A stretch of DNA of 64,000 nucleotides, from positions 682,001 to 746,000 of the forward strand of contig NZ_JAUSZH010000001.1 of the NCBI RefSeq assembly GCF_030817355.1. Reading direction: 5' to 3'. Below are positions 37,294 to 53,122 of this stretch, in pieces. Source of the stretch: Streptomyces sp. V1I1 (GTDB lineage: Bacteria; Actinomycetota; Actinomycetes; Streptomycetales; Streptomycetaceae). The notes beneath the pieces were generated by a model, which saw nothing but the letters and a program-made list of their open reading frames with translations, searched no databases and was not told the DNA's origin. How positions within the stretch are numbered: the stretch's first letter is position 1; each line of letters starts with the position of its first letter. Position numbers and translations under genes: made by a program.

Positions 37294-37454
37294 GCCGGCC
37301 CCGTAGCAGCGCGGCCAGGCCCTCGTCTCACTTCAGCTTGACGGTCATTCGGCCGACCACCCCACGCTGAGCGCCGTCGCTGCCAAGAGCCTGCTCGGAC
37401 CGACACGTCCGCGGGTGGAGGCTGCCCGGAATCCACGGGTGAGCGACGCCGAGG

Positions 37455-38216
37455 CTACGACCGGCGGCGAGGTTTGCCGCGCTTACCGCCCTTGGGGCCG
37501 CCGGAACCGCTCCGTGGGCTCTTGCCGCTCGACTTGCCGGCTGCGGGCTTCCGCTGTGCGCCGCCTGTATCGGAGCGCTTGCGCTTCGGCTGTGCCGGGG
37601 TCGGGGGGCGACCCCGTGTGCTGTTGACGGTCCGCCCGCGGACGATCCCGATGAATTGCTCCACCAGGTCGGTGGTTTCGTCCTGCGGCCACGACAGTGC
37701 GATGCGCGACTCGGGGGCGTCCGAGACCGGCCGATACGTGAGGTCCTTACGGTGGTGCAGGCGGGCGAGTGACTGTGGGACGACGAGCAGTCCCACTCCT
37801 GCCGCCACCAGTTCGATGGCATCCGCCGTCGTGGCGGGGCGCTCGATCGCGGGCCGTCCCGGCAGACGCTCCCAGTCGAGGACGTCGTCGAGGGGATGCA
37901 GCACGACTTCGTCGGCGAGATCCTCAGCGGACACCTGGTCGACCGCCGCCACGACGTGGTCTTTCGGGACCACGACCACCGTCGCCTCGGTGTACAGGGG
38001 GATCGCGCTGAGGTCCGTCCGGTCGATAGGCAACCGCACGAAACCCGCGTCGGCGCCGCCGCTCCGCAGCACGTCGAAGACCTCAGCGGCGGGTACCGCG
38101 ATGAGGTTCAGTGGGACTTCGGGCAGCCGCTCGTTCCAGATCCGCACCCACTTCGTGGGCGTCACTCCCGGGACGTACGCAAGCCGGAACGAAGGGGATA
38201 CTTCCGAGCCTGTCAC
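37455..38216 (-). CDS. LysR-type substrate-binding domain protein without HTH
   Basis: 253 residues. The first 190 form the periplasmic-binding-like effector domain of LysR regulators (LAYVPGVTPTKWVRIWNER, DAGFVRLPID, VAAGVGLLVVPQSLARLHH), but no N-terminal winged helix precedes it. The C-terminus is a long Lys/Arg/Ser/Gly-rich tail that could bind nucleic acid nonspecifically. The GTG start is 60 bases from the divergent DUF5997 gene, an arrangement seen repeatedly in Streptomyces. The ligand is unknown. Confidence 0.85.
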   Translation of the reverse strand: MTGSEVSPSFRLAYVPGVTPTKWVRIWNERLPEVPLNLIAVPAAEVFDVLRSGGADAGFVRLPIDRTDLSAIPLYTEATVVVVPKDHVVAAVDQVSAEDLADEVVLHPLDDVLDWERLPGRPAIERPATTADAIELVAAGVGLLVVPQSLARLHHRKDLTYRPVSDAPESRIALSWPQDETTDLVEQFIGIVRGRTVNSTRGRPPTPAQPKRKRSDTGGAQRKPAAGKSSGKSPRSGSGGPKGGKRGKPRRRS

Positions 38217-38275
38217 TCGGCCAGGTTACCGGTCGTGGTCGGAGGTAGCGCACACGCTCGAATACCCTTGACACC
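38217..38275. promoter_or_regulatory. Divergent promoter region, DUF5997 / LysR-like pair
   Basis: TACCCT at about 38263-38268 fits an actinobacterial -10 (TANNNT) and would start transcription at or very near the ATG of the rightward gene. This suggests a leaderless mRNA, since no ribosome site lies close to that ATG. Confidence 0.4.
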
Positions 38276-38680
38276 ATGATGTCGCACCAGACCGCCCAGA
38301 CGATGAAGCCCGCAACCGCGGCAAAGAAGCTGGGTGTGTACCTCGAGGCCACCCCCGCCGAGTTCCAGGAGGGTGTCGTCTCGCGCACCGAGTTGAACGC
38401 GCTGCAGGCCGATCCGCCCGAGTGGCTGCTGGAACTGCGACGCAACGGCCCGCATCCGCGGCCGGTGGTCGCGGCGAAGCTGGGCATCTCCATCTCAGGT
38501 CTCGCGCGTGGCGGAATCACAGACGCCCTCACCACGGAGCAGATCGACGCGTTGAAGCGGGACCTTCCCGAGTGGCTGCAGAAGGAACGTGCCACCCAGG
38601 CCGAGGTCCGGAAAGAAGCGGCGCGGATCAAGGAGAAGGACTCGGCGCGCGGCGATCAACCCCGCCGGCCGCGCTCCTGA
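38276..38680 (+). CDS. DUF5997 family protein
   Basis: 134 residues, recognised from its conserved form: QTMKPATAAKKLGVYLEATP, then PAEFQEGVVSRTELNALQ, PEWLLELRRNGPHPRPVVAAKLG and ARGGITDALTTEQIDAL. The two PEWL(x)ELR-type segments look like a duplicated small helical module, and the tail is highly charged. Function is unknown. The gene is consistently paired with the divergent HTH-less LysR-like gene, so the two may work together. Either of two adjacent ATG codons may be the start. Confidence 0.85.
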   Translation: MMSHQTAQTMKPATAAKKLGVYLEATPAEFQEGVVSRTELNALQADPPEWLLELRRNGPHPRPVVAAKLGISISGLARGGITDALTTEQIDALKRDLPEWLQKERATQAEVRKEAARIKEKDSARGDQPRRPRS

Positions 38681-38751
38681 CCTTCCTCCCTCGCGTGGAC
38701 GGGTTCGACAGGGGCAGCCCGAACCGTCTTGCTCGTTCCAGGAGCGACGAA

Positions 38752-38789
38752 GAGGCGCCTGACTGGGACTGATGCCCGTCAGGCGCCTC
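38752..38789 (+). terminator. Hairpin terminator after the DUF5997 gene
   Basis: GAGGCGCCTGAC and its exact complement lie around a 14-base loop, 71 bases after the stop. It also insulates the damaged NRPS region that follows. Confidence 0.75.
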
Positions 38790-38981
38790 CCTTACAGGCG
38801 CCGCCTCCTCATCTGGCGACCGATGGGCTCTGACGCTCGCGGATGAGGACAGTTGCGCGGACCTGAACTCCGGCGCCGCTCTCGTCGCAAGCGCTCGGGT
38901 GCTCGGTTCACCGCCGGCGCACCGGCCGAAATTCGACCATGGAGTACCGGCCACCGGCCGGGCGGCGCAGATCGCGGTTAG

Positions 38982-41900
38982 GTCGTCGGCGATCCCGAAG
39001 GGCTGATCGAGGCCATCACCGAGTACGGGGTCACCACGCTGCAGTGCGTGCCGACAGTGCTGCAGGCACTGGTGGACACGGAGGAGCTGGACCGGTGCAC
39101 TTCGCTCAGGCAGGTTTTCAGCGGGGGCGAGGCGCTGTCCAGGAATCTGGCGGTGCAGGTGCTGGACACGCTTCCGGGCTGTGACCTGATCAATCTGTAC
39201 GGGCCGACCGAATGCACCATCAACGCGTCCGCCTTCACCGTGGACCGGGCCGGGGTCGGTGAGGGCCCCAACGCCGTGTCGATCGGCTCGCCTGTCCACA
39301 ACACCCGCTACTACATACTCGACGAAACACTGTCGCCGGTGGCCGTGGGCGAGATCGGTGAGCTGTACATCGCCGGCGTGCAGCTGGCACGGGGGTACCT
39401 CCACCGACCGGAGCTGACCGCGGAACGGTTTGTCGACAACCCGTCCGGCCGGGACACCGGGGACACCAGGCTGTACCGGACCGGAGACCTGGCCTAGTGG
39501 AATTCCGATGGAACCGTGCAGTTCACCGGCCGCGTGGACAATCAGGTCAAGCTGCGGGGCTTCCGGGTCGAGCCGGACGAGATCAGGCTGGCGATCGAGA
39601 CCCATGACTGGGTCAAGAACACGGCGGTGATCGTCAAGGAAGACCCTCGCACCGGCTTCCAGAACCTCATCGCCTGCATCGAGCTGAGTCCGAAGGAAGC
39701 AGCGCTGATGGACCAGGGCAATCACGGCGCCCACCATCAGTCGAAGGAGAGCAAGCTCCAGGTCAGGGCGCAGCTGTCGAACGCGGGCTGCCGCGACACC
39801 GCGGAGATCGCCGGCCGGACGGTTGTGGACCTTCCCGGCAAGGAGCCGACCCCGGAACAGCGGCGGCGCGTGTTCGCGCGTAAGACGTACCGTTCCTTCG
39901 AGGACGGTGACGTCACCAGGGCCGACATTCTCCGGCTCCTCGACCGCACACGTACCGCCGACGCGCGGCCCCGGAGTCTGGCGGAGCTGACCCTCGCCGA
40001 ACTCGGGGAGATCCTGCGGTACTTCGGCCAGTTCCTCAGCGAGGAGCGGCTGCTGCCGAAGTACGGATACGCGTCGCCGGGCTCGCTCTACGCGACGCAG
40101 ATGTACCTGGAACTGAGCGGGACCGGTGGGCTGCCACCGGGGCACTACTACTACCACCCCGTGCACCACCAGTTGGTGCTGATCCGGGAGACGCCCGATG
40201 CCGGACCAGCGGACGAGGCACGGCTCACGTTCCATTTCGTGGGCAAGAAGCGGGCGATCGAGCCGGTCTACAAGAACAACATCCAGGAAGTCCTGCACAT
40301 CGAGACCGGCCATATGGTGGGCCTTTTCGATGAGGTTCTCCCCGCGTACGGACTGAGCATCAGGGAGCTGGAGCTCACTCCTGAGGCAAAGGACCTCCTG
40401 GAGTGCGCCGACGAGGACTACTACCTCGGCACTTTCGAGGCGGTTCCGTTCACGGGGCAGCGGCAGGACGACACACTCGACATATGTGTGCATGCGCACC
40501 CGGGGAAGATCGTCGACCTGTCGGCGGGCCAGTACCGGTACCGGGACGGTGAACTGGAGCGCATATCAGGCGAACTCGTCCGCAAGAAGGACGTCATCGC
40601 CATCAACCAGCGGGTCTACGAGCGGTCGAGTTTCGGGATCACGGTGCTGAGCAGGCCCGAGCGTGGCTGGCAGGGCTACGTCGATCTGGGCCGCAAGCTG
40701 CAACGCCTGCAGATGAACGACCTGGGCCTGGGATTCATGTCCTCCGGCTACAGCTCGGAGACCGGTAGTGACCTGCCCTCAGCGAAGCGGATCGCAGGCA
40801 TCCTGGGAGCCCGCGGCGAACGTACGGGCCCCTCCTACTTCTTCGTCTGCGGCCGGGTGAGTGCCGAGCAGGTCCGCAGCGAGGGCATGAAGGAGGACAT
40901 GGTCCATATGCAGGGTCCGGCGGAGATGATCAAGGAGGACCTGGTCAACTTCCTGCCGGACTACATGGTGCCGAACAGGGTCGTCATCCTGGACCGGCTG
41001 CCTCTCACCGCCAGCGGAAAGATCGACGTCAAGGCGCTGGAGGCGTCGGACAAGACCGACATGGATTTCGCCGACCGCCCCTTCGTCCCGCCACGCACGA
41101 GGACGGAGAAGCGGATCGGGGACATCTGGAAGATGCTGATGAAGCGTGACGCCGTCTCGGTGCGGGACGACTTCTTCGCGTCCGGCGGTAATTCGCTCAT
41201 CGCGGTCGCGCTCATCAACAGGGTCAACAAGACGTTCAGGAGTGCGCTCCCGCTCCAGGCGCTCTTCGATTCACCGACGGTCGAGAAGCTCGCGCGCCGG
41301 ATCGACGGCGACCATGCCGGCACCACCTCGCGGCTGATACGGCTGCGAGGCTCCGGCTCCGGGAATCCTGTCTACTGCTGGCCCGGACTCGGGGGTTACC
41401 CCATGAACCTGCGCCTGCTCGCCGACAAGCTGGACATGGAACGTCCCTTCTACGGCGTTCAGGCGTACGGCATCAACCCGCTGGAGACGCCGTATCCCAC
41501 CATCCGGGACATGGCCGCAGAGGACATCAGGGCCATCAGACGCGTACAGCCCACGGGTCCATACACGCTCTGGGGTTACTCCTTCGGTGCCCGGGTGGCC
41601 TTCGAAGCGGCTCATCAGCTGGAGCAGGCCGGGGAACAGGTGGAGAACCTGGTGCTGATCGCACCGGGGTCACCCAAGGTCCGGGCCGACGACGCAGTGG
41701 TTCACGGCAACGAGCCGACGTACCGCAACAGGGCGTTCGTGACGATCCTCTTCTCCGTGTTCGCGGGCGGCATCAGCGGTCCCCTGCTGGAGGAGTACCT
41801 GCGGCAGGCCGCGGACGACGAGACCTTCGCGACGTTCATCACCACGGTGTTCAGGGGCCTCGACCGCGAACTGGTGCAGAGAATCGTCCGGATCGTCCGT

Positions 41901-42176
41901 CAGACGTACGAGTTCACCTACACCTTCCGTGAACTGGCGGAACACCGGATCGAGGCCCCGGTGACCATCTTCAAGGCGCGGGGCGACGACTACTCGTTCA
42001 TCGAGAACCGCAGCGGCTACTCCGCAGAGTCGCCGACCGTCATCGCCCTCCAGGCAGACCACTACAGCCTGCTGCGCGATCCCGACATCGACGAGCTGGT
42101 CCAGACGATCCGTCGCCGGCTACGTGGCCGGCAGCCGGGGCTGGAACAAGGACAGGAAAAGAAGGAGGAGTTCACC
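38982..42176 (+). pseudogene. indC: Indigoidine/minimycin-type NRPS (A-Ox-T-TE) with truncated A domain and amber codon
   Basis: The order matches the single-module glutamine-cyclising synthetases BpsA/IndC/MinA: adenylation C-part (VTTLQCVPTVLQALVD, FSGGEALS, NLYGPTECTINAS, YRTGDLA), TAG at 39495, then VQFTGRVDNQVKLRGFRVEP in the same frame. An FMN nitroreductase-like oxidase inserted in the A domain follows (RKTYRSFEDGD, LPKYGYASPGSLYATQMY, LGFMSSGYSSETG), then the A10 Lys in PLTASGKIDVKAL, a carrier domain (DDFFASGGNSL) and a thioesterase (LWGYSFGARVAFEAAHQ, catalytic His in QADHYSLL). About 200 N-terminal residues with the A1-A3 ATP-binding motifs are missing; a faint trace reaches back to about 38925. 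A shorter product could restart at the GTG at 39516. Confidence 0.9.
39495..39497 (+). other. In-frame amber codon inside the adenylation domain
   Basis: TAG sits exactly where relatives have Gln in GDL-x-QW-N-x-DG: the frame reads GDLA, stop, WNSDGTVQFTG. A single C-to-T change of CAG explains it. The frame is unchanged on both sides. Confidence 0.9.
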
Positions 42177-42401
42177 TTGCCTCACGTCAATATCAAGCAC
42201 TTCCCCGTCGCGCTCAGCGAGGAGCAGGAGTCCGAGCTGGTCGCCGCGGTGGCCAAGGCGGTGCAGTCGGCCTTCGAGTGCGACGAGGGGGTCATATCCA
42301 TCGCGCTCGAACCGGTCGATCAGGACGCCTGGAACGAGCAGGTCTACGTCCCGGAGCTGGTGGAGCGCAAGGAACTGCTGCGCAAAACCCCCAACTACTG
42401 A
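42177..42401 (+). CDS. 4-oxalocrotonate-tautomerase-family protein (TTG start, Pro-1)
   Basis: 74 residues from a TTG at 42177 that is preceded six bases upstream by AAGGAGGAG. Initiation there gives Met-Pro-His-Val-Asn-Ile-Lys; after Met removal, Pro becomes the N-terminal catalytic base that defines this superfamily. The rest (FPVALSEEQESELVAAVAKAV, then GVISIALEPVDQDAWNEQVY) fits the beta-alpha-beta tautomerase fold. The frame is continuous with the NRPS upstream, so an inert C-terminal fusion is the alternative reading. In the pathway it might tautomerise the aminated pyridinedione made from glutamine; that is inference. Confidence 0.75.
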   Translation: MPHVNIKHFPVALSEEQESELVAAVAKAVQSAFECDEGVISIALEPVDQDAWNEQVYVPELVERKELLRKTPNY

Positions 42402-42446
42402 AGACGCCATATCGCAACATCGAAGTACGACAAGGATCGGAGACGC

Positions 42447-43427
42447 ATGACGACGCGCCGCCACCCCGGCGACATCCCCCTGGTGTTCAGCGAGGAGGTC
42501 TCGGAGGCACTCCACTCCGGTGCACCGGTCGTGGCACTGGAGTCCAATGTCATCACGCACGGCCTTCCCTACCCTGACAACGCTGCCACCGCCCGGAAGG
42601 TGGAGGCGGCCGTCCGCGCCGGTGGCGCGGTCCCGGCCACGATCGGCATCGAGAACGGCGGCATCCTCGTCGGGATGACGGATGCGGACATCGAACGCTT
42701 CGCATCGACACCCGGCATCCCCAAGGTCAGCAGCAGGGACATGCCTGTCGTCCTGGCCCGGGGCGGCATGGGCGCCACCACCGTGGCCTCCTCCGTGGTC
42801 GCGGCGGAGCTGGCGGACATCCCGTTCTTCGCCTCCGCCGGTATCGGCGGAGTGCACCGTGGTGCGGAGACCACCATGGACATCTCCTCCGACCTGATCC
42901 AGTTCACCCGGTCCAAGGTGGCGGTGGTCTGCGCCGGTGCGAAGAGCATTCTGGACCTCGGCCTGACCATGGAGTTCCTGGAGACGCACTGTGTGCCGCT
43001 GGTCTCCTACCGGTTCGACGACTTCCCGGCCTTCTACTGCCGCACCAGCGGCATTCGCAGCCCGCACCGGCTGGACGATGAGGCGGTGATCGCCCGGGCC
43101 ATCGAAACCCACTGGGCGCTCGGCAACCGCAGTTCCTTCCTCGTCGCCACACCCATCAAGGAAGCGGACGCGATCGACAGCCGGGAAGTCGACGCCGCGA
43201 TCGCCGACGCGATGGTCGCCGCCGAACGCGACGGCGTCAGGGGCAATGGCCTCACCAAGTACCTGATGCGCGCCGTCGACAAGGTGACCGAGGGCCGCTC
43301 CGCCAAGGCGAACATGTCCGTCCTCATCAGCACGGCCGAACTGGCGGGCCGGCTCGCCCTGGCGCACGCCCGGCTCCGCGCCGAGGGCCTGCCGGCCGGT
43401 ACGCCCGCGCCGGAAGGAGGGCGATGA
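42447..43427 (+). CDS. indA: Pseudouridine-5'-phosphate glycosidase family C-glycosidase (IndA/MinB type)
   Basis: 326 residues. PsuG-family motifs are [32 protein letters not shown], and [15 protein letters not shown], with Lys166 at the position of the ribose-attacking Lys of E. coli Psu[13 protein letters not shown] and a C-terminal NxxLxxxNA-like segment follow. The housekeeping reaction splits pseudouridine 5'-phosphate to uracil and ribose 5-phosphate. In C-nucleoside clusters the reverse reaction joins the heterocycle to ribose 5-phosphate. GGATCGGAG precedes the ATG. It overlaps the HAD gene by ATGA. Confidence 0.93.
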
Positions 43428-44095
43428 CCGCCGTAGCCGTCTTCGACCTCGACGGAACACTCATCGACACACCACGCGGGATCGTGGACACGTTCACGGC
43501 CGCTTTCGCGGCCATGGGCCTCGACACCCCTGACCCCGCGGAGGTCCGCGCGACGATCGGCCTCCCCCTGGAGCAGGCGTTCGGCAAGCTCATGGGTGTC
43601 ACACCCGACGACGAGCGGGTGGTCGAAGGAATACGCCAGTACCAGAGGAAGTTCCGCGACATCGTGCTGCCCAGGGCGGTGGAACTGCTCTTCCCCGGCG
43701 TCGCGGACGGCCTCGCGGCTCTGCGCGACCAGGGGATGCCCCTCGCCGTGGCGACGAGCAAGTTCTACGCCAGCGCTGACGCACTGCTCACGGCGGCGGC
43801 GCTGCGGGACCTGTTCGATGTCGTGGTCGGCGCCGACCAGGTCACCCACCCCAAGCCCCACCCGGAGTCCGGCCAGATGGTCCTGCGCGAGCTGGGGGTA
43901 CCGGCCGAGCGGGCGGTGATGGTCGGGGACACCACCCACGACCTGCTGATGGCGAGGGCCTGCGGTATGCGGTCGATCGCCGTGACGTACGGCGTGCACA
44001 GTGTGCACGAACTGCGGACGGCCGACCCCACGTGGCTGGTGGACACCTTCGACGACGTCCTGGCGCGCCTCACAGCCGCATCGGCGCAGAGCTGA
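43424..44095 (+). CDS. indB: HAD-superfamily phosphatase (IndB/MinC type)
   Basis: 223 residues with HAD motif [11 protein letters not shown] (Asp8, Asp10), motif II VATSKF, motif III Lys in [10 protein letters not shown] and motif [16 protein letters not shown]. The cap helices are of the phosphoglycolate-phosphatase type. It most likely removes the 5'-phosphate from the C-nucleotide made by the preceding glycosidase, to which it is coupled by an ATGA overlap. In the minimycin cluster a HAD domain is, as I recall, fused to DUF4243; here the two are separate genes. Confidence 0.92.
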
Positions 44096-44098
44096 CGG

Positions 44099-44581
44099 GT
44101 GGTCACCGTGTTCGGACGTTCGACCGACTGGCTGCTGGGCATCGCGGGAGGTGTACTTCTCGCGCTGATGATCCACTACAACAGTCTTCTGGCGAAGTAC
44201 ACGACGCCCACGTTTGCGTCGTGGGTGGCCCACGGCCTCGGCGCGGTGGTAGCTGTGCTGCTCGTGATGCTGGCGGCCTCTCGGCTGTTCCGCCGGACGC
44301 GTGCGGGTGAGGAGCCGGAGCGGGTGAAGGCGCCACTCTGGTTCTATCTGGGCGGCATCCCGGGCGCGTTCACGGTGATACTGGCCGCGATCACCGTGAA
44401 CGGAAGTCTGTCGCTGTCCGGCACGATCGCACTCATGCTCGTGGGTCAGATCGTCTTCGGACTCGTGTCGGACCACTTCGGGCTGTTCAACACCCCGAAA
44501 CGGCGCCTCGTGGCCATGGACGCCGTCGTGGCGCTCTGTGTTCTCACCGGCAGCGCTCTCATCATCTTCGGCGGAGCGTGA
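44099..44581 (+). CDS. YdcZ/DUF606-like DMT-superfamily transporter, subunit 1
   Basis: 160 residues with five hydrophobic helices, including LLGIAGGVLLALMIHYN, GLGAVVAVLLVMLAA, and LWFYLGGIPGAFTVILAAIT. The pattern is that of half-size DMT exporters of the YdcZ/DUF606 family. It starts with GTG three bases after the HAD stop, and its stop overlaps the second subunit (GTGA). It probably pairs with the next protein to export the pathway product. Confidence 0.82.
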   Translation: MVTVFGRSTDWLLGIAGGVLLALMIHYNSLLAKYTTPTFASWVAHGLGAVVAVLLVMLAASRLFRRTRAGEEPERVKAPLWFYLGGIPGAFTVILAAITVNGSLSLSGTIALMLVGQIVFGLVSDHFGLFNTPKRRLVAMDAVVALCVLTGSALIIFGGA

Positions 44582-45027
44582 CCGTGATCCTCTACGTACT
44601 CCTCGCCTTTCTCAACGGCGCGGTCATCGGAACCAGCCGCGCGATCAACGGGCGGCTCAGTGCGACGATCGGTCCTTTCCGGGCATCGTTGTGGAACCAC
44701 GTCGTGGGTTTTCTCCTCCTCACCGTGATTCTCGCAGCCCTCGGCCAATGGGAGTTCGGCTCCTCCCCGCCCCTGGCCGCCTATCTGGGCGGTTTCTTCG
44801 GCGCTTTGTTCGTGGCCGTCAGCAGCTATGTGTTCCCCCGGCTCGGCGCGATGAACGCCGCTCTTATGGTGATCAGCGGCCAGATGATCTCCGCCGTCCT
44901 GATCGACTGGCAGAGCAAGGGAATGACCCCCAATGGACTGCGGTGTCTTGGGGTGGTCATCGTGCTTCTGGGCATCTACCTGTCCAGGTTGTCACAGTCA
45001 CACCGCGAGAAGGAAAAAGTGCAGTGA
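44578..45027 (+). CDS. YdcZ/DUF606-like DMT-superfamily transporter, subunit 2
   Basis: 149 residues with five helices (ILYVLLAFLNGAVIGTSRAING, VVGFLLLTVILAALGQW, FFGALFVAVSSYVFPRLGAM, ALMVISGQMISAVLIDW, GVVIVLLGIYLSRL). NGRLSATIGPFRASLWNH is typical of the family. It is the partner of the preceding half-size transporter, with which it shares four bases. Its end overlaps the DUF4243 gene by GTGA, so transport is co-translated with biosynthesis. Confidence 0.82.
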   Translation: MTVILYVLLAFLNGAVIGTSRAINGRLSATIGPFRASLWNHVVGFLLLTVILAALGQWEFGSSPPLAAYLGGFFGALFVAVSSYVFPRLGAMNAALMVISGQMISAVLIDWQSKGMTPNGLRCLGVVIVLLGIYLSRLSQSHREKEKVQ

Positions 45028-46214
45028 TTAGTTCACCGGTGATCGAGCAACTGTTGGACGACCGGAGTTACCACATCGAGTTCAACGGGCATCTCAGCAA
45101 TCACTCCAAACACGCAGTGGTCGCGCTGGCTCTGCTCGGGGCGTCTCCGGATCGAATCAAGGAGTACTACGACAACTATGCGAAGCTGACGACGTACGGA
45201 TACGGCCTGGAACCGCCCAGGCCGTCCAAGTACGTCATTACGGAGGAGAACTGGAAGGAGTTCTTCGGCCGGCGCACCAGCTTCTCGTCCTACTGCGAGT
45301 TCTTCGACCGCAAGGAGCGGGAACTCGGCATGGACGAGGTGCTGCGGCGCTATGTGCCGACGCTGCTTCCGGGCTGGGTCGGTGCCTTCACACACGCCAC
45401 CATTCACCTGGGGTGGGCCCTGGAGGCAGGCAGCCGGTGGATGACCATCGAGGGTCTCGCGTACATGGCGTTCTCGTACGTGTCCTGTCACCCGGAACGG
45501 ACGTCCTCCGCGGACGCCGGCGCGTCGGCCGTTGATTCCCTGCTGCGTATCGCAGGCGCCTGGGACAACGATCGCGAGCAGCTCCGCAAGTGGGCGCAGG
45601 AGCTCGGCACCGTCCCAGAATCGGGCGTGCCGGAGGGCATTCACCCTGAACTCGCCCGGTCCGGGCTGCAGTACCGCAACGCCAGGATGCTTGCGGAGGG
45701 CCATCCTCTGATCTACGACACGCCGTCCTGGATCGCCGACCAGGACGTCCCGACGAGCTGGGAACAGCTGTACTACACGGCCACGCTGCTGTATCTCTCC
45801 CGCCCGGGAGATTTCGTGCTGCTGCATCTGATCACGTCCCTCCACGCGATGGAACAGATCGCCGCACGCCTGCCCGAGGACATGCACCGGTACGTCATCA
45901 CCTGTTACTGGACGGCAATGCTCGGCGTTGTATTCGCCCTCGCCGACTTCCCGAAGCGGGCGAAGCTGGCGGCCCTGCACTCCGCGTTCGAGGACACGGC
46001 CGACGCGGGCGGCAGCGAGACGTGGCGCCCGGACTGGGAGCTGACCGTCGCCCGGTCCTTCGAGGAAGAGGAAGAGCACAATCCCAAGCTCGTCCATGTC
46101 ATGCGCAGGATGTGGGAGCGAACGGGAGGTCGGTCCATCTACCGGACAGCGGCCGCCCAGTTCACAGCCACGCCTGCACTGCCCCCGTCCTTCGAACAAC
46201 CGCCGAACGAGTGA
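45024..46214 (+). CDS. DUF4243 / questin-oxidase-like oxygenase (MinN-type)
   Basis: 396 residues from GTG. The N-terminus YHIEFNGHLSNHSKHAVVAL, then LGASPDRIKEYYDNYAK, is the DUF4243 signature (EFNGxLSNHxxHAxxAL). His-rich helices follow (FTHATIHLGWALEAGSRWM, LLHLITSLHAMEQIA). Questin oxidase performs a Baeyer-Villiger-like cleavage; in minimycin synthesis a DUF4243 domain is reported to divert the indigoidine precursor toward the oxazine C-nucleoside. AAGGA lies nine bases before the start. It is complete and coupled to the exporter, the best pointer that this cluster was for a C-nucleoside rather than indigoidine. Confidence 0.85.
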   Translation: MISSPVIEQLLDDRSYHIEFNGHLSNHSKHAVVALALLGASPDRIKEYYDNYAKLTTYGYGLEPPRPSKYVITEENWKEFFGRRTSFSSYCEFFDRKERELGMDEVLRRYVPTLLPGWVGAFTHATIHLGWALEAGSRWMTIEGLAYMAFSYVSCHPERTSSADAGASAVDSLLRIAGAWDNDREQLRKWAQELGTVPESGVPEGIHPELARSGLQYRNARMLAEGHPLIYDTPSWIADQDVPTSWEQLYYTATLLYLSRPGDFVLLHLITSLHAMEQIAARLPEDMHRYVITCYWTAMLGVVFALADFPKRAKLAALHSAFEDTADAGGSETWRPDWELTVARSFEEEEEHNPKLVHVMRRMWERTGGRSIYRTAAAQFTATPALPPSFEQPPNE

Positions 46215-46241
46215 CTTCGAGCGTTGGGAGACCTGAACACC

Positions 46242-46841
46242 ATGCTGAGCGCGAAATTACCGTCGACCGAGGAATATCTCGGCAGTCTCACGTCGGAACG
46301 CATCATTCGGATGCTGATTGAAGCCGGCCTCAATCTCCTGCCATTGGAGAAGTGCGAGGTCACCACGCCGGTCGGCGAGACCTACGAGGGCCTGCGTCTT
46401 CCCTCGCGCATCTGCGGGGTGTCCGTGGTCCGCGCCGGCGAGAGCATGGAGGGGCCGCTGCGTGCCATCTGCCCATCCATTCGTATCGGCAAGATACTCA
46501 TGCAGCGGGACAAGAAGACGAAACTCCCACACCTTTACTACACATCGCTTCCCAGCGATATCGCCGAGAGTCATGTGCTGCTCCTCGAGCCCATGCTGGC
46601 CACTGGCGGAACCGCGGTCGCCACGATTCAGCTCCTGCTCGACAAGGGCGTCGCGGAGGAGAACATCGTCTTCGTCAACCTGATCACCGTGCCGGAGGGC
46701 ATCAACGCGGTCTGCCGGCGCTATCCGAAGGTGCGGATCGTCACGTTCACGTCCTCCATCGAGGAGCGGCTCAACGAGAACGCCTACATGGTCCCCGGCA
46801 TCGGTGACTTCGGCGACCGGTTCTTCGGCACGGACATATGA
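46242..46841 (+). CDS. Uracil phosphoribosyltransferase, cluster-linked copy
   Basis: 199 residues, type I phosphoribosyltransferase. Motifs include ICGVSVVRAGESMEG, the PRPP loop VLLLEPMLATGGTA (about 112-125) and the uracil-binding C-terminus YMVPGIGDFGDRFFGTD. It converts uracil and PRPP to UMP. It is somewhat divergent from housekeeping Upp and sits directly after the DUF4243 gene, as in minimycin-type clusters. Roles may be base salvage or protection from uracil-like intermediates. The ATG at 46242 follows GGGAG by about 12 bases. Confidence 0.9.
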   Translation: MLSAKLPSTEEYLGSLTSERIIRMLIEAGLNLLPLEKCEVTTPVGETYEGLRLPSRICGVSVVRAGESMEGPLRAICPSIRIGKILMQRDKKTKLPHLYYTSLPSDIAESHVLLLEPMLATGGTAVATIQLLLDKGVAEENIVFVNLITVPEGINAVCRRYPKVRIVTFTSSIEERLNENAYMVPGIGDFGDRFFGTDI

Positions 46842-47245
46842 CCGAGGTGATCGAGAAGGTGGCGTGGGTCCGGCTGGAGAACGGCCGGATTCTCGTCGTC
46901 CGATCCCGGGGAAAGGACGCCTATTACCTTCCCGGTGGCAAGCCGGAGCCCGGTGAGGGCGCTCATGAGAGCCTGATCCGGGAGGCGCGGGAGGAACTGG
47001 GCGTCGAACTGCTTCCCGGGAGCATCACCCCGACGGTCACCGTCCAGGCCCCGGCCCATGGCGAGCCGGCAGGAACCATCGTCCGTATCGCCTGCCACAC
47101 CGCCGACTACCGAGGGGTGCCGGCACCACACAGCGAGACCGCCGAGCTCGCCTGGCTCACCCATGGCGACCGCCATCGGGTGAGCCAGGCGGCCCGAATC
47201 GTCCTGGACCTGCTCGCCGCGGACGGTCGGCTGCGCGGCGGCTGA
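46838..47245 (+). CDS. NUDIX hydrolase
   Basis: 135 residues with a complete Nudix box from Gly34 to Val56 (G-x5-E-x7-R-E-x2-E-E-x-G-V; REAREELGVEL visible). It hydrolyses nucleoside diphosphates linked to another group; the specific substrate is unknown. The ATGA overlap with the uracil phosphoribosyltransferase places it at the end of the C-nucleoside operon, so cleaning up toxic nucleotide analogues is a reasonable inference. Confidence 0.92.
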   Translation: MTEVIEKVAWVRLENGRILVVRSRGKDAYYLPGGKPEPGEGAHESLIREAREELGVELLPGSITPTVTVQAPAHGEPAGTIVRIACHTADYRGVPAPHSETAELAWLTHGDRHRVSQAARIVLDLLAADGRLRGG

Positions 47246-47951: not shown

Positions 47952-48247
47952 TCGCCGAGTCTAGGTGATCAGGACATCCGCGCTCGGATGGCCAGGACGG
48001 CGCCGCGGGCCGAGAGCGTCCCGAGGAGACGGATCGGCTCAGTCGGGCCCGGGCGGTGGCCGGCCAGCAGGTGACGCGTGAGGCCCCTGGGGCGGCACGG
48101 CACTGGGAGCCGGTCCACCTGGGCATCCACCCCGCGTCAAGAGGCGCGCCTGTGCGTCATCCCCTGTCGAACAGGGAAGCCATCTACCGAGCCCGAGTCC
48201 ACGTGCGAAATCGACCCGTCCGCGGGGTAGTTGAGGGAGTATCAGTA

Positions 48248-49579
48248 ATGGGGACGATGACGGACGGCAATGGCCAAACGGGGCGAATACGGCCCGATGG
48301 GATCAGCCGATGGAGGGTCCGGAGAGGCCGCCCCTCATCCGTCGGCGAAGTGGGCAGCGCCGTGCCACGCAGGATATTCCGGCAGGCGGCCAAGTGGATC
48401 CCCGCCCCATGGGTGGCAGCCCTCACGCAGCAAGTCCGTCACGACCACCCCGGACCGGAAAAGCAGACGTCTGTTCCGTTAACGCCCCAACACGCCGCCG
48501 GGAAGGCCCGAACGTCGGCTTCGGATGACGTCCCACCATCGACAGCGACGATGTATGAGTTTCACCTGCCGCACCTACCAAGCCGACTTCCCGCGCGCTA
48601 CCATCCCCAGTCCCCAGAGTTGCAGAAGAACTCCGGAAGCTGGTCCCGCGCGCATCTCCCGTTCGCCGGAGCCGAGGAGCGGCAGCGATTCCTCGAGTAC
48701 GCCTGCCTCTTCCCGTGTCTGGTGTGGCCACAAGCCACCTATGACAGGATGCGCGACCTGTGCGACCTGTCCGCGGTGATCTCCCGCATCGATGATGTTT
48801 TGCCCAACCCGCACGATGCCGGCCGAAGTGAAGCACGCGCCGCGGAATTCGCCCGGGAGCTGGACGCCGTTCTGCGGGGCGAGCCAGTGCCATCCGCTGA
48901 GGGGCCCGGTTACGCGTCCGCTCTTTCGGACGTCTGGGGCCGTATCACGGCCAAGGCGGCTCCCGGCGTGCGGCAGCGTCTGTTCGCGTCGCTCCAAATC
49001 CTCTTTCGCAGCTTCGTGGCAGAGGTGGCCTCACGGCACGGGGGCGGGTTCACCGATCTCCCCAGCTATTTGGAGCTACGTGCCCACAGCGTGGGTGCCG
49101 ACCTGTGCAGCGCGATGGCCGAGTACGGAGTGGGCGTCGACCTGCCCGAGGCCCTCTTCGCCGAGCCGGAACTCCGGGATCTTCAGAGGGAGGTCGCGGA
49201 ACACCTCACCTTCGTCAATGACTTGTTCACCTTCGCCTACGAACAGCACAGGGGCGAGACCATGAACGCCGTCCTCATCCTGTGCGACAGAGGCGGCGTG
49301 GCTCTGCAGGAGGCCGTTGACCGGATATGCCGGAGGATCGAGGAGGCAGAGCGCCGATTCCTATTCCTGCGGGACCACCTGCTCGCCAGCACCGCTCGGA
49401 CTGCGGAAGTCCACGCGTACCTGGATGCCCTGGAAAACATGCTCGCCGGCAACTGGCACTGGTCGTGCACCAGTCCCCGCTACCACGGATCCGCCTTCGT
49501 CTGGAACCCGGTGACCACGGGAACCGTCACCCTGCGCCCTGGTGGCCCGACGTCGTTCACCGCTTCCCCCAGCACGTAA
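48248..49579 (+). CDS. Terpene synthase family protein with N-terminal extension
   Basis: 443 residues from the ATG at 48248, preceded by GAGGGAG. The terpene-cyclase core starts near residue 102 (MYEFHLPHLPSRLPARYHP); the first 100 residues are a basic, Ser/Pro-containing extension. The metal-binding NSE-type triad is visible as NDLFTFAYE (324-332), with the effector Arg in RAHSVGADL. The first Asp-rich motif is only IDDVLPNP (residues 181-188), lacking the usual third acid. The C-terminal WSCTSPRYHG matches the family RY pair. The product is unknown. An internal start at 48551 would give a standard-length cyclase. Confidence 0.82.
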   Translation: MGTMTDGNGQTGRIRPDGISRWRVRRGRPSSVGEVGSAVPRRIFRQAAKWIPAPWVAALTQQVRHDHPGPEKQTSVPLTPQHAAGKARTSASDDVPPSTATMYEFHLPHLPSRLPARYHPQSPELQKNSGSWSRAHLPFAGAEERQRFLEYACLFPCLVWPQATYDRMRDLCDLSAVISRIDDVLPNPHDAGRSEARAAEFARELDAVLRGEPVPSAEGPGYASALSDVWGRITAKAAPGVRQRLFASLQILFRSFVAEVASRHGGGFTDLPSYLELRAHSVGADLCSAMAEYGVGVDLPEALFAEPELRDLQREVAEHLTFVNDLFTFAYEQHRGETMNAVLILCDRGGVALQEAVDRICRRIEEAERRFLFLRDHLLASTARTAEVHAYLDALENMLAGNWHWSCTSPRYHGSAFVWNPVTTGTVTLRPGGPTSFTASPST

Positions 49580-49617
49580 CCCGCCAGGGGTGATGTCAAT
49601 TCTTGGGGAGCCGGACA

Positions 49618-52600
49618 CTACCCTTCCCCTCGCTTGCCCGCCCCCGGCCCGAAGGCCTGCGGGCCGGCCGGATCCGCGCGAGACGGAACAAGGCTCAGCG
49701 ATCTGGGTGCCGGCAGCCGCAGCGCCCGTCGCAGGCCCGCCCTGTCCGTCCCGACCTTTCTGTACACGGAGGACAACAACCGGGCCACCTGCGTATCGTC
49801 CATCCGCAGTTCCTCCGCGATCAGTTCGTTGGAACTGCCCAGCGCGGCCCGCTCGGCGGCCTTCCGCTCCTCCTGGTTCAGCGACTCCGCCGCCGTGTCG
49901 CCGCGCAGCCGTCGCGGTCGCAGCCCGAGGCCGGCAAGCTCGCGACTGGCCGTCGTAGCCAGCGCCTCGGCTCCGCACTGCGCCGCCAGATCCATCGCCA
50001 GATACAGCTGCTCCGCGCATTCCTCGATCCGCCCGGCACGCCGCAGAGCTGAGCCCTGATCCGCCAGTGCCCGTGCGTACTCATAGGCTGCCGGCGACTG
50101 CTCGAGGCAGGCTACGGCCCGTTCCAGCAGGCGCAGGCCTTCCGGACCTTCGGTGAGGCTTGCCGCGACGCGCAGGGCCATCCCCACCTGTGAGGCGATG
50201 CCCGCACGCTCGGCGCGGTCAGCCTCCTGCAGGGCCAGATCCCGTGCTTTTTCGAGGTCTTCCTCGGCTTCGGCCAGCGCCAGATGGCCGAGCCAGGGGC
50301 TCAAGGTTGGGTTGATCATCTCTCGCGCTGTGAGCCTCCGCCCCGCCGCCGCGAGGTCCATCGCCGCTTCCCTGGTGCGGCCCTGGGCGAGGCGCAGCTC
50401 CCCGTGCACCGCCTGCGGTGGCGGGAACATCATCGCCCTCGGGAAGTCATCTCCGAAGGCATGGCTCTCGGCCAGTTCCTGTGCGGCGGCGATCTCGCCT
50501 TTGGCCAGCAGCACCTCGATGAGGATGGCCACGGCATTGCACCGCGCGCTCACGCCCTCCCCCACCCGTTCGGCGACGTCCAGCCCCTTCCTGGCGAAGT
50601 CCTCCGCCTCGGCGAGCCTGCCCCGTCGGTAGCGGACGTAGCCCAGCAGTGCGTAGCCGTAGGACAAGTGCGCGCCGCGCCACCCTGCGGCCTCGAACTC
50701 CGCGATACCCGCGGCGAACAGCTCCTCCGTGCGGTGTGGCCGGTCACAGTACATAAACGTCAGTGCCACCAGGACCGGCACCTCGAAGCCCCAGTCCGGG
50801 TCGGTCCAGCTCATCCCGTCACGCAGGGCACGCTCGGCATAGTCCACGACGTTGTCCGCCCGCTCACCGCGAACCATGGCGTCCCATGCCCGCAGGCCCA
50901 GAATATAACGTTCCGTCAGATCTCGGCCGGTCAGTCGATCGGCAAGGCGGGCCAGGCGACGAGAGCGCGCGGCAGAGTCCGGCTCGTCGACACGGAAGGC
51001 GGACCAGATGAAATGCCAGGCCTGCATCCGCAGCCGGGCCCGAGAATCGACCGCCTCGCGCGCCTCCTTGGCGACCGTCTCGGCCGCCTCCGCGAGCCGG
51101 TCGGTGTGTGCCAGAACCTGGGCCAGGCGCAGGGTGATCCCCTCACGCAGGGCAGGTGTCACCTGCGGCTCCTCCAACGCCGACTGCAAATGATTGACCG
51201 TGGCTACGGGCGAGTGCAGCAGCGATGAGCAGCCCAACTCGTAGAGCACGGCAGCGCGCACATCGGCCGGGGGAGGCTCCTGCAAAGCCCTTCCCAGGCA
51301 GCGGCGGGCTGCATCCGGCGCACCGGCCCGCAGATAGGCCCGTGCGGCGTCACGCAAGTGTTTCACCACCGCCGGGTCCCGCTCCGGCTGTGTCTCCAGC
51401 AGGTGACGGGCCGCCGCGACAGGGCCTTGACCGGCGTCGAGGAGCGCCCAGGCGGCCTGGCCGTGCATGGCAACCCGCACCGCTCCCGGGATCGCCCGGT
51501 AGACCGCGGTGGCGATCAGCGGGTGGACGAACTCCAGGGTGTCGCTGCCGGTGAGAATGCGTCCCGCCCGCAGCCGGTCGGCGGCGTCGGTCACTTCCGC
51601 CGGGCCCAGGCTCGCGATGTTCGCGGCCAGTTGGGGTGGTGCCTCGGTGCCCAGCAAGGCCACCGCCCAGGCGAGCCGCACAGCCGTCGGGCCCATCCGC
51701 CGCAGACGGGCGACCAGACCACTGCCTTTGACAGCAGCGGCCAGATCGTGCAGCAAAGGGCTGTTCTCCTCGGTCGGCAGGATGCCGCGCTCCAGTACCT
51801 TGGCGGTCAGCTCCACCGCCTCGTACGGGTTGCCACCGGTGACGACCCAGCACTCGCGGCAGAACCCGTACTCGGCATCCTCGCCGAGTTCCCGGCGCAA
51901 CAGTTCGGCGACCGCTTCCTGGGTGAGCGCGGCCAGGCCAAGCGGCCGCACGCCGTTCCTCCCGGCCATCCGGCGGAGTCCTTCGGCCTCTTCGGAAAGC
52001 TGGTCGGGCCGGTAGGCCAGCACCATCAGCAGCGGCAGGTCCTCAACCTTGGAAACGAAAGAGGCCAGCCAGGCCAGCGACTCGCCGTCGGCCCAGTGCG
52101 CGTCGTCCACAATCAGCACGAGCGGCGCGTCGCGCATCGCCAGACGGGTCACCACCCAGTCGAGACCGTCCCGCACTCCCTGCGGGTCGGGCAGCGCGGC
52201 TTTCTCGCCGTCCTTCCCATGCGCCACATCATCCGGAGCCGCGAACAGCCCCAGCGCCGGGCCGACGATCTCGTACCACGCGCCCAGGAGTTCACGGCGT
52301 TCCACTTCGGACAGCGCGGCCAACGCAGGCTGGAGCAGGCGGCGGACCACGTGGAAGGCAAGACCCTCCTCCTGTTCGCCGCCCCTGGCGAACAGGGCCC
52401 CGCAGCCGCGCTCCAGGGCGATGCGCCGTACTTCCGCGAGCATGCTGGTCTTGCCGAGCCCGGCCGCCCCGGTGAACACCACCAGCCCGCCGCCGTTGCT
52501 TCTCGCGGCCTTCTGGCCACAAAGGTTGGCCAAGGCGTCGGTGACGGCATGCAGTTCGCTCTCACGTTCCAGCAGCAGCCCAGATCCAGGCCCCCGACCC

Positions 52601-52656
52601 CGGTGCCATCCAACAGCGTCGCTGCCCCGATGGGCTCCCCTGTCTCGTTCCTTCAC
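49618..52656 (-). CDS. Large ATP-binding LuxR-family (LAL) regulator
   Basis: 1012 residues from the GTG at 52656 (GGAGG seven bases upstream). The N-terminal AAA/STAND ATPase has Walker A GAAGLGKT (63-70), Walker B LVLIVDDAHWADGES and sensor-like PLLMVLAYRP. A long TPR-like helical middle follows (e.g. RRGRLAEAEDFARKGLDVAERVG). The C-terminus aligns with a LuxR helix-turn-helix (SSNELIAEELRMDDTQVARLLSSVYRKVGTD), but several conserved residues are replaced. It is convergent with the terpene synthase gene 38 bases away and is a candidate regulator of it. Confidence 0.9.
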   Translation of the reverse strand: MKERDRGAHRGSDAVGWHRGRGPGSGLLLERESELHAVTDALANLCGQKAARSNGGGLVVFTGAAGLGKTSMLAEVRRIALERGCGALFARGGEQEEGLAFHVVRRLLQPALAALSEVERRELLGAWYEIVGPALGLFAAPDDVAHGKDGEKAALPDPQGVRDGLDWVVTRLAMRDAPLVLIVDDAHWADGESLAWLASFVSKVEDLPLLMVLAYRPDQLSEEAEGLRRMAGRNGVRPLGLAALTQEAVAELLRRELGEDAEYGFCRECWVVTGGNPYEAVELTAKVLERGILPTEENSPLLHDLAAAVKGSGLVARLRRMGPTAVRLAWAVALLGTEAPPQLAANIASLGPAEVTDAADRLRAGRILTGSDTLEFVHPLIATAVYRAIPGAVRVAMHGQAAWALLDAGQGPVAAARHLLETQPERDPAVVKHLRDAARAYLRAGAPDAARRCLGRALQEPPPADVRAAVLYELGCSSLLHSPVATVNHLQSALEEPQVTPALREGITLRLAQVLAHTDRLAEAAETVAKEAREAVDSRARLRMQAWHFIWSAFRVDEPDSAARSRRLARLADRLTGRDLTERYILGLRAWDAMVRGERADNVVDYAERALRDGMSWTDPDWGFEVPVLVALTFMYCDRPHRTEELFAAGIAEFEAAGWRGAHLSYGYALLGYVRYRRGRLAEAEDFARKGLDVAERVGEGVSARCNAVAILIEVLLAKGEIAAAQELAESHAFGDDFPRAMMFPPPQAVHGELRLAQGRTREAAMDLAAAGRRLTAREMINPTLSPWLGHLALAEAEEDLEKARDLALQEADRAERAGIASQVGMALRVAASLTEGPEGLRLLERAVACLEQSPAAYEYARALADQGSALRRAGRIEECAEQLYLAMDLAAQCGAEALATTASRELAGLGLRPRRLRGDTAAESLNQEERKAAERAALGSSNELIAEELRMDDTQVARLLSSVYRKVGTDRAGLRRALRLPAPRSLSLVPSRADPAGPQAFGPGAGKRGEG

Positions 52657-53122
52657 GCACGCACCTCCGCACACTCCCTCGGCACCGATTCAGGGCCCGG
52701 AACCGGCCCGTCACCAGCGAAGCACTACCCACTGGGCGACGGTACTGGCATGACGTCCCATCAGGTGCAAGATCGACGGTCTTGTCATCCGAAGGGTGGG
52801 ATTGCAGGCACACGTCCTGTGGTGGCGGCTTCCTGGGTGTGGTCGAGGAAGGGTGCCGCCACTGACCAGCCGACTCTGCCCGTCGGGGGTGATGTGTTGC
52901 CGCGTCCATGGCTGCTCACAGATGCCGCTGCTGTGATGGAGGCCTTCCAGGATCCGGCGATCCAGCGCTGGCATGTGCGGAGCTGGTGACGCGCTGGGCG
53001 AAGAACTGCCCCTGGGACGTTGGGGGTTATGCCGTACCGCCCGCGCGTGCGATTCTGGCGGACGGTCCGGCCTCGACCGGTCACCGTCACGTTTCGCACT
53101 GAGTCGAGAGGAAGAAGAGCAG
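52657..53122. other. Intergenic with a GNAT fragment
   Basis: The regulator's promoter should lie in the left part. Apart from the short acetyltransferase remnant at 52897-52989, no coding signal was seen. Confidence 0.5.
52897..52989 (+). pseudogene. GNAT acetyltransferase N-terminal fragment
   Basis: LPRPWLLTDAAAVMEAFQDP, then IQRWHVRSW, matches the first strand and helix of RimJ/RimL-type GNATs (LRPW..DDAxAVLEAFxDPxIxRWH). A stop follows, and no acetyl-CoA-binding part is present downstream. Confidence 0.6.

Follow-up and report, generated by a model that had tools for sequence, protein, structure and literature searches.

The genome of the soil bacterium Streptomyces sp. V1I1 contains a damaged C-nucleoside biosynthesis locus within the window analysed here, a stretch of 64,000 nucleotides (positions 682,001 to 746,000 of the forward strand of contig NZ_JAUSZH010000001.1). 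The locus occupies positions 38991–47245 of the window on the forward strand and begins with the remnant of a nonribosomal peptide synthetase (NRPS) of the glutamine-cyclising kind. Judged from its gene content, the locus is a minimycin (oxazinomycin)/indigoidine-type cluster by descent and a defective one by state, and it very probably represents a recently inactivated cluster that is decaying in this lineage. A first-pass annotation had already assigned the gene set to the minimycin kind, and Pfam matches confirm the order and identities of the genes.

The NRPS is represented by an adenylation (A) domain remnant at 38991–39494, an in-frame TAG codon that splits it at 39495–39497, and a remaining frame of 961 residues at 39516–42401, which encodes the end of the A domain followed by oxidase (Ox), carrier (T), thioesterase (TE) and tautomerase (Tau) domains. 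Downstream lie a MinB/IndA-type pseudouridine-5'-phosphate glycosidase (C-glycosynthase; 326 residues, 42447–43427), a HAD phosphatase (223 residues, 43424–44095), the two halves of a YdcZ-type exporter matched by PF04657 (160 residues, 44099–44581; 149 residues, 44578–45027), a DUF4243/questin-oxidase-like protein (396 residues, 45024–46214; PF14027), a MinD-type uracil phosphoribosyltransferase (199 residues, 46242–46841) and a NUDIX hydrolase (135 residues, 46838–47245; PF00293), all on the forward strand. A scan for promoters and terminators gave no match and is uninformative for such an organism. According to the part of a review that deals with the minimycin pathway, L-glutamine is activated and cyclised by MinA, whose tautomerase part yields the form that is C-ribosylated by MinB, and the two parts of MinC complete the ring and remove the phosphate (PMC8724604). 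The HAD phosphatase and the DUF4243 protein are the counterparts of the N-terminal and C-terminal halves of MinC, respectively, so that both MinC functions are present as two genes, and the exporter pair, recognised by Pfam, is a candidate counterpart of the transporter MinT.

The glutamine-activating NRPS is predicted to be dead, being broken twice by the loss of its front and by a TAG inside. The Pfam AMP-binding family (PF00501) matches the remnant over profile positions 264–384 of 384 only, and the ATP-binding front of the A domain is missing. Consistently, DNA homology to three intact clusters, those of Streptomyces griseocarneus JCM 4580 (L009), S. triculaminicus (L010) and Streptomyces sp. 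I05A-00742 (L018), starts at 38991 with none before this position, which corresponds to 741 bp past the start codon of the L009 NRPS. When aligned with P0002, an intact protein of 1382 residues in the public data, the remnant matches from residue 247 onward, and residues 1–246 have no counterpart, so that about 246 front codons are gone. These results bear out the earlier statement that the ATP-binding front of the A domain is lacking. The TAG, which that annotation did not mention, falls in a region where the NRPS frame is uninterrupted in all 15 relatives used for comparison (L009–L023, with NRPSs 54–77% identical; 8 other loci of the 23 retrieved carry distant NRPSs and were excluded). With the A-domain front absent and a TAG inside, the A-Ox-T-TE-Tau architecture of an L-glutamine-activating, minimycin-type NRPS is incomplete.

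The Ox, carrier and thioesterase domains had been described as retained. Within the 961-residue frame, the carrier domain (residues 533–596) and the thioesterase (from residue 618) are indeed recognised, whereas the evidence for the Ox domain is limited to its alignment with intact relatives and a SagB-type match at residues 159–226 that falls short of the threshold (37.6 bits against a cut-off of 78.4). The tautomerase, previously listed as a gene of its own, is fused to the C-terminus of the NRPS (residues 888–961).

The truncation stands out in the genus. A survey of 392 genus genomes with the remnant as query found 65 matching places in 61 genomes (E <= 1e-200, a threshold that would miss badly decayed copies). 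At the 64 places other than that of the window, the open frame is never shorter than 1274 residues, compared with 967 in the window, and two of these places (G358 and G378) align only from query residue 228–237. Some of the matches hold one stop (two in G202), which would mark the boundary between the NRPS and the tautomerase where the latter is a separate gene. Among the best 120 of 1170 NRPS proteins, three are shorter than 1270 residues, namely P0030 (936), P0102 (857) and P0111 (1175). P0102 lacks a start residue and is probably cut by a contig end. P0030, from Streptomyces klenkii, starts inside the A domain and is possibly a second independent truncated copy; a contig end or the choice of start site may also explain its length. 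The idea that the 961-residue frame is a working split NRPS loaded in trans by another A domain has a precedent in the stand-alone NRPS parts of showdomycin biosynthesis, as summarised in section 5 of the review (PMC8724604). However, the break lies inside the A domain, the TAG is located just upstream of the frame, no A-domain-only partner is found among the cluster genes, and the 64 other places in the genus are all long single frames. A split enzyme is therefore extremely unlikely.

Where the NRPS front and the DNA upstream of it would lie, the window has a junction stretch at 38683–38990 (308 bp) with no convincing match in seven loci, namely the three intact clusters and four fetched flanks. 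Next to it lies a block at 37448–38682 that belongs to the upstream flank and not to the cluster. It contains, by eye, the C-terminal part of a LysR-like gene on the reverse strand and a small helix-turn-helix-like gene on the forward strand (38276–38680). A DNA query covering 37400–38990, and so including this block, is matched, in some cases weakly, in 278 of 295 genomes of the genus. The best flank matches stop between about 38640 and 38700, and the four fetched examples stop at 38638–38682. In these four flanks, the neighbours of the block do not match those of the window. In the genome G258, about 30 kb of a single contig separate the flank block from the cluster, which prompted consideration of a simple inversion at the junction. 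Such an inversion is unsupported because the lost front has no counterpart in the genome and no further synteny appears in the stretches compared.

Genome-wide searches found no replacement for the missing part. The assembly consists of 2 contigs with a completeness of 99.71%. The lost front of 247 residues matches 36 places across the genome, the best with 40% identity inside a frame of 3215 residues, and none is a counterpart. The search for a second BpsA/MinA, which the first-pass annotation had proposed, likewise found no further indigoidine-type NRPS: none of the 15 other matches (28–55% identity) extends over the oxidase part (query residues 75–468). These searches found neither a second NRPS nor a translocated front elsewhere in the genome. 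They also bear on whether a misjoin at 38990/38991 hides an intact NRPS. The unmatched junction stretch would suit such an assembly artefact. However, the assembly is in 2 contigs and nearly complete, it holds no counterpart of the missing front, and the TAG and two indels in the transferase gene are separate lesions, which makes an artefact highly unlikely.

The transferase gene is the second damaged gene of the cluster, a lesion that had been missed. The encoded protein shares 189 of 197 aligned residues with P0242 from Streptomyces sp. NPDC019443; relative to P0242, it has lost an internal segment of 29 residues and gained an insertion of 2 residues. The Pfam match covers profile positions 27–206 only. 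At least 26 of the 29 residues of the lost segment are kept in 119 of the best 120 of 815 homologues, the exception (P0241) being the window's own protein. This count used P0242 residues 17–45, one residue off the alignment gap at residues 16–44, and the outcome is unchanged by the offset. P0242 aligns lengthwise, with the segment included, with the solved transferase 7rh8. The MinD-type gene is present with both indels, and its product is probably non-functional. The earlier claim that all downstream genes keep full motifs consequently fails for the transferase, except that the stretch that we take by eye to be its phosphoribosyl pyrophosphate (PRPP)-binding motif is still there.

The remaining downstream genes have retained full-length frames. 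The MinB-type protein matches PF04227 over profile positions 1–290 of 291, and the structures of AlnA (4ex8), its best solved match, and PsuG (4gij) are matched by sequence. A homologue of it is matched in 13 of the 15 relatives, the exceptions being L013 and L014. The glycosidase, the HAD phosphatase, the exporter halves and the NUDIX protein are about as long as their counterparts in L009, L010 and L018, from which they differ in frame by 1–3 residues at single sites; the HAD phosphatase has the same length in all three. The DUF4243 protein and P0121 align without gaps and with 98.7% identity, the start residue being one of 5 differences over 396 positions, although the sequence cluster of P0121 may include the window's own protein. 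A fused HAD and DUF4243 protein is found in L017, P0173 and P0196. The NUDIX gene is common to L009, L010 and L018 and has no match above the comparison cut-off in L012, L015, L016 and L017.

The spared genes raise the question of whether the remnant is kept for a purpose of its own. One such purpose is immunity, with the exporter, the HAD phosphatase and the transferase protecting the cell from minimycin made by neighbours. Self-resistance of minimycin producers is described in the review's account as the joint work of the phosphatase part of MinC, MinD and MinT (PMC8724604), and neither the exporter frames nor the HAD frame of the window is shortened. However, the damaged downstream gene is the MinD-type one, that is, one of the three safeguards, and another full-length uracil phosphoribosyltransferase, with a Pfam match from profile position 1, is encoded at C1:4245316. 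Retention for immunity is very unlikely. The copy at C1:4245316 also rules out that the cluster transferase is retained as the sole copy. Similarly, a further full-length Indigoidine_A-family gene at C1:6390222 rules out that the MinB-type gene is retained to replace a missing housekeeping pseudouridine glycosidase.

A recent loss of the NRPS, one of two alternatives raised by the first-pass annotation, is supported because a 98%-identical intact copy exists and the dead gene does not show a raised ratio of nonsynonymous to synonymous substitution rates (dN/dS). P0002 is 98% identical across the entire 961-residue frame. Over 1135 aligned residues of the two NRPSs, 19 differ, of which 9 changes are derived in the window, 4 are derived in P0002 and 6 are undecided. 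In pairwise comparisons with L009, L010 and L018, the remnant has a dN/dS of 0.28–0.32, similar to that among the three intact copies (0.28–0.29). With L009 as the sister and L012 as the outgroup, the window-branch dN/dS of the NRPS is 0.19 (bootstrap range 0.14–0.27), which is within the spread of the downstream genes; the branch estimate is coarse, the sister branches of the NRPS being higher (0.52 and 0.47). At 410 positions invariant in seven relatives, the window NRPS has 16 changes, compared with 0–8 in six relatives and 85 in the more distant L017. Two of the 16 are found in the window only, and 14 are common to P0002 and therefore older than the split between the window and P0002.

The other alternative was that the later genes still act on a heterocycle made elsewhere, in the same cell or by neighbours, to give a C-nucleoside. 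In its favour, no shortening is seen in the MinB-type, HAD, exporter, DUF4243 and NUDIX frames, and dN/dS on the window branch is low. The proposed measurement of downstream dN/dS yielded 0.07–0.22 on this branch; NUDIX could not be included, and the value for the transferase, which rests on an alignment with misplaced N-terminal residues, is not relied on. However, the dead NRPS gives a similarly low dN/dS, and therefore the low downstream values say little about selection since the loss and do not serve as proof that selection acts at present. Later genes that served another precursor would be expected to occur without the NRPS in some genomes. The DUF4243 protein occurs in 6 of the 392 genus genomes, that of the window included (E <= 1e-90), and each of the 5 others carries a full-length NRPS (frames of 1358–1487 residues) on the same contig within 5 kb; five is a small number, drawn from a genus sample, and weaker DUF4243 relatives fall outside the count. 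Together with the lack of a second NRPS, the absence of the front from the genome and the damaged transferase, this leaves the use of a precursor made elsewhere unsupported and very improbable. It is highly improbable that the C-glycosynthase, phosphatase, exporter and DUF4243 genes are kept to C-ribosylate and modify an environmental or otherwise-made heterocycle into a different C-nucleoside.

The recent inactivation of a minimycin/indigoidine-type cluster would account for these observations as follows. A rearrangement or deletion would have taken the first ~246 NRPS codons together with upstream DNA, leaving the NRPS remnant adjoining a widely conserved chromosomal block, and a nonsense codon would also have been acquired in the remnant. 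Lacking the ATP-binding part of its A domain, the enzyme would no longer activate L-glutamine, so that neither the indigoidine intermediate nor the C-nucleoside would be made. Loss of the product would then have relaxed selection on the other genes, of which the transferase already carries two indels and the rest would have had no time to decay. Several points weigh against this reading. The excess of window-derived changes in the NRPS (9 vs 4) is not significant (p = 0.27), nor is that obtained when the transferase is included (13 vs 5; p = 0.096). The open downstream frames and their low dN/dS could also reflect selection that acts now. Neither transferase indel shifts the reading frame, and with the presumed PRPP motif retained the enzyme may keep some activity. 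From the sequence alone, an assembly error at the junction is possible, although such an error would leave the TAG and the indels of the transferase gene unaccounted for.

The most likely explanation is an antibiotic pathway that is dying through ordinary gene loss caught early. The locus would exemplify an antibiotic cluster at an early stage of decay, with a dead starter enzyme, damage to a described self-resistance gene and tailoring enzymes that are still whole. A starter enzyme and self-resistance hit before tailoring is the order expected when the toxic product vanishes first, which makes the case informative on decay order and not surprising. Cluster-finding software would probably still call the region a C-nucleoside/indigoidine producer, and most likely it is not one. 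Downstream of the cluster, at 48056–52674, a terpene-synthase-like frame on the forward strand and a large LuxR/LAL-type regulator frame on the reverse strand are seen by eye.

Decay of individual biosynthetic clusters in Streptomyces is generally known. No title on a broken minimycin cluster was found among those listed for minimycin, oxazinomycin clusters and indigoidine pseudogenes, in a search that covered few papers of subscription journals, and no such case appears in passages of PMC3937824 and PMC9120177.

Compared with known systems, the locus most closely resembles the clusters of L009, L010 and L018, in which the order of the eight genes is identical, including the exporter pair and NUDIX. 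Identity to them is 75–77% for the NRPS remnant and 87–90% for the MinB-type protein. Unlike in the window, the NRPS frames of these three clusters are uninterrupted. The minimycin cluster of Streptomyces hygroscopicus JCM 4712 (minA–D and minT; MK122964) was compared only through its description in the review. That description shares with the window an NRPS of the A-Ox-T-TE-Tau type, a MinB C-glycosynthase, HAD and DUF4243 parts and a uracil phosphoribosyltransferase, and its transporter has a candidate counterpart in the YdcZ-type pair (PMC8724604). In contrast to it, the NRPS of the window is truncated and interrupted, the transferase is damaged, the MinC parts are two genes with the exporter pair between them, and a NUDIX gene is added that is not among the five min genes of the review (PMC8724604). 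Indigoidine clusters (bpsA/indC, indA and indB) likewise combine a glutamine-cyclising A-Ox-T-TE NRPS with an Indigoidine_A partner. At the thresholds used, the NRPS is found in 61 of 392 genomes, far more often than the DUF4243 protein with 6 of 392. The relevant portion of a myxobacterial study describes both fused and separate tautomerases in indigoidine clusters (PMC12766979). The C-glycosylation systems of showdomycin and alnumycin (SdmA/AlnA with SdmB/AlnB) likewise pair a YeiN-like C-glycosidase with a phosphatase, whereas showdomycin biosynthesis, as the review outlines it, uses separate NRPS parts and not a single glutamine-cyclising NRPS (PMC8724604).

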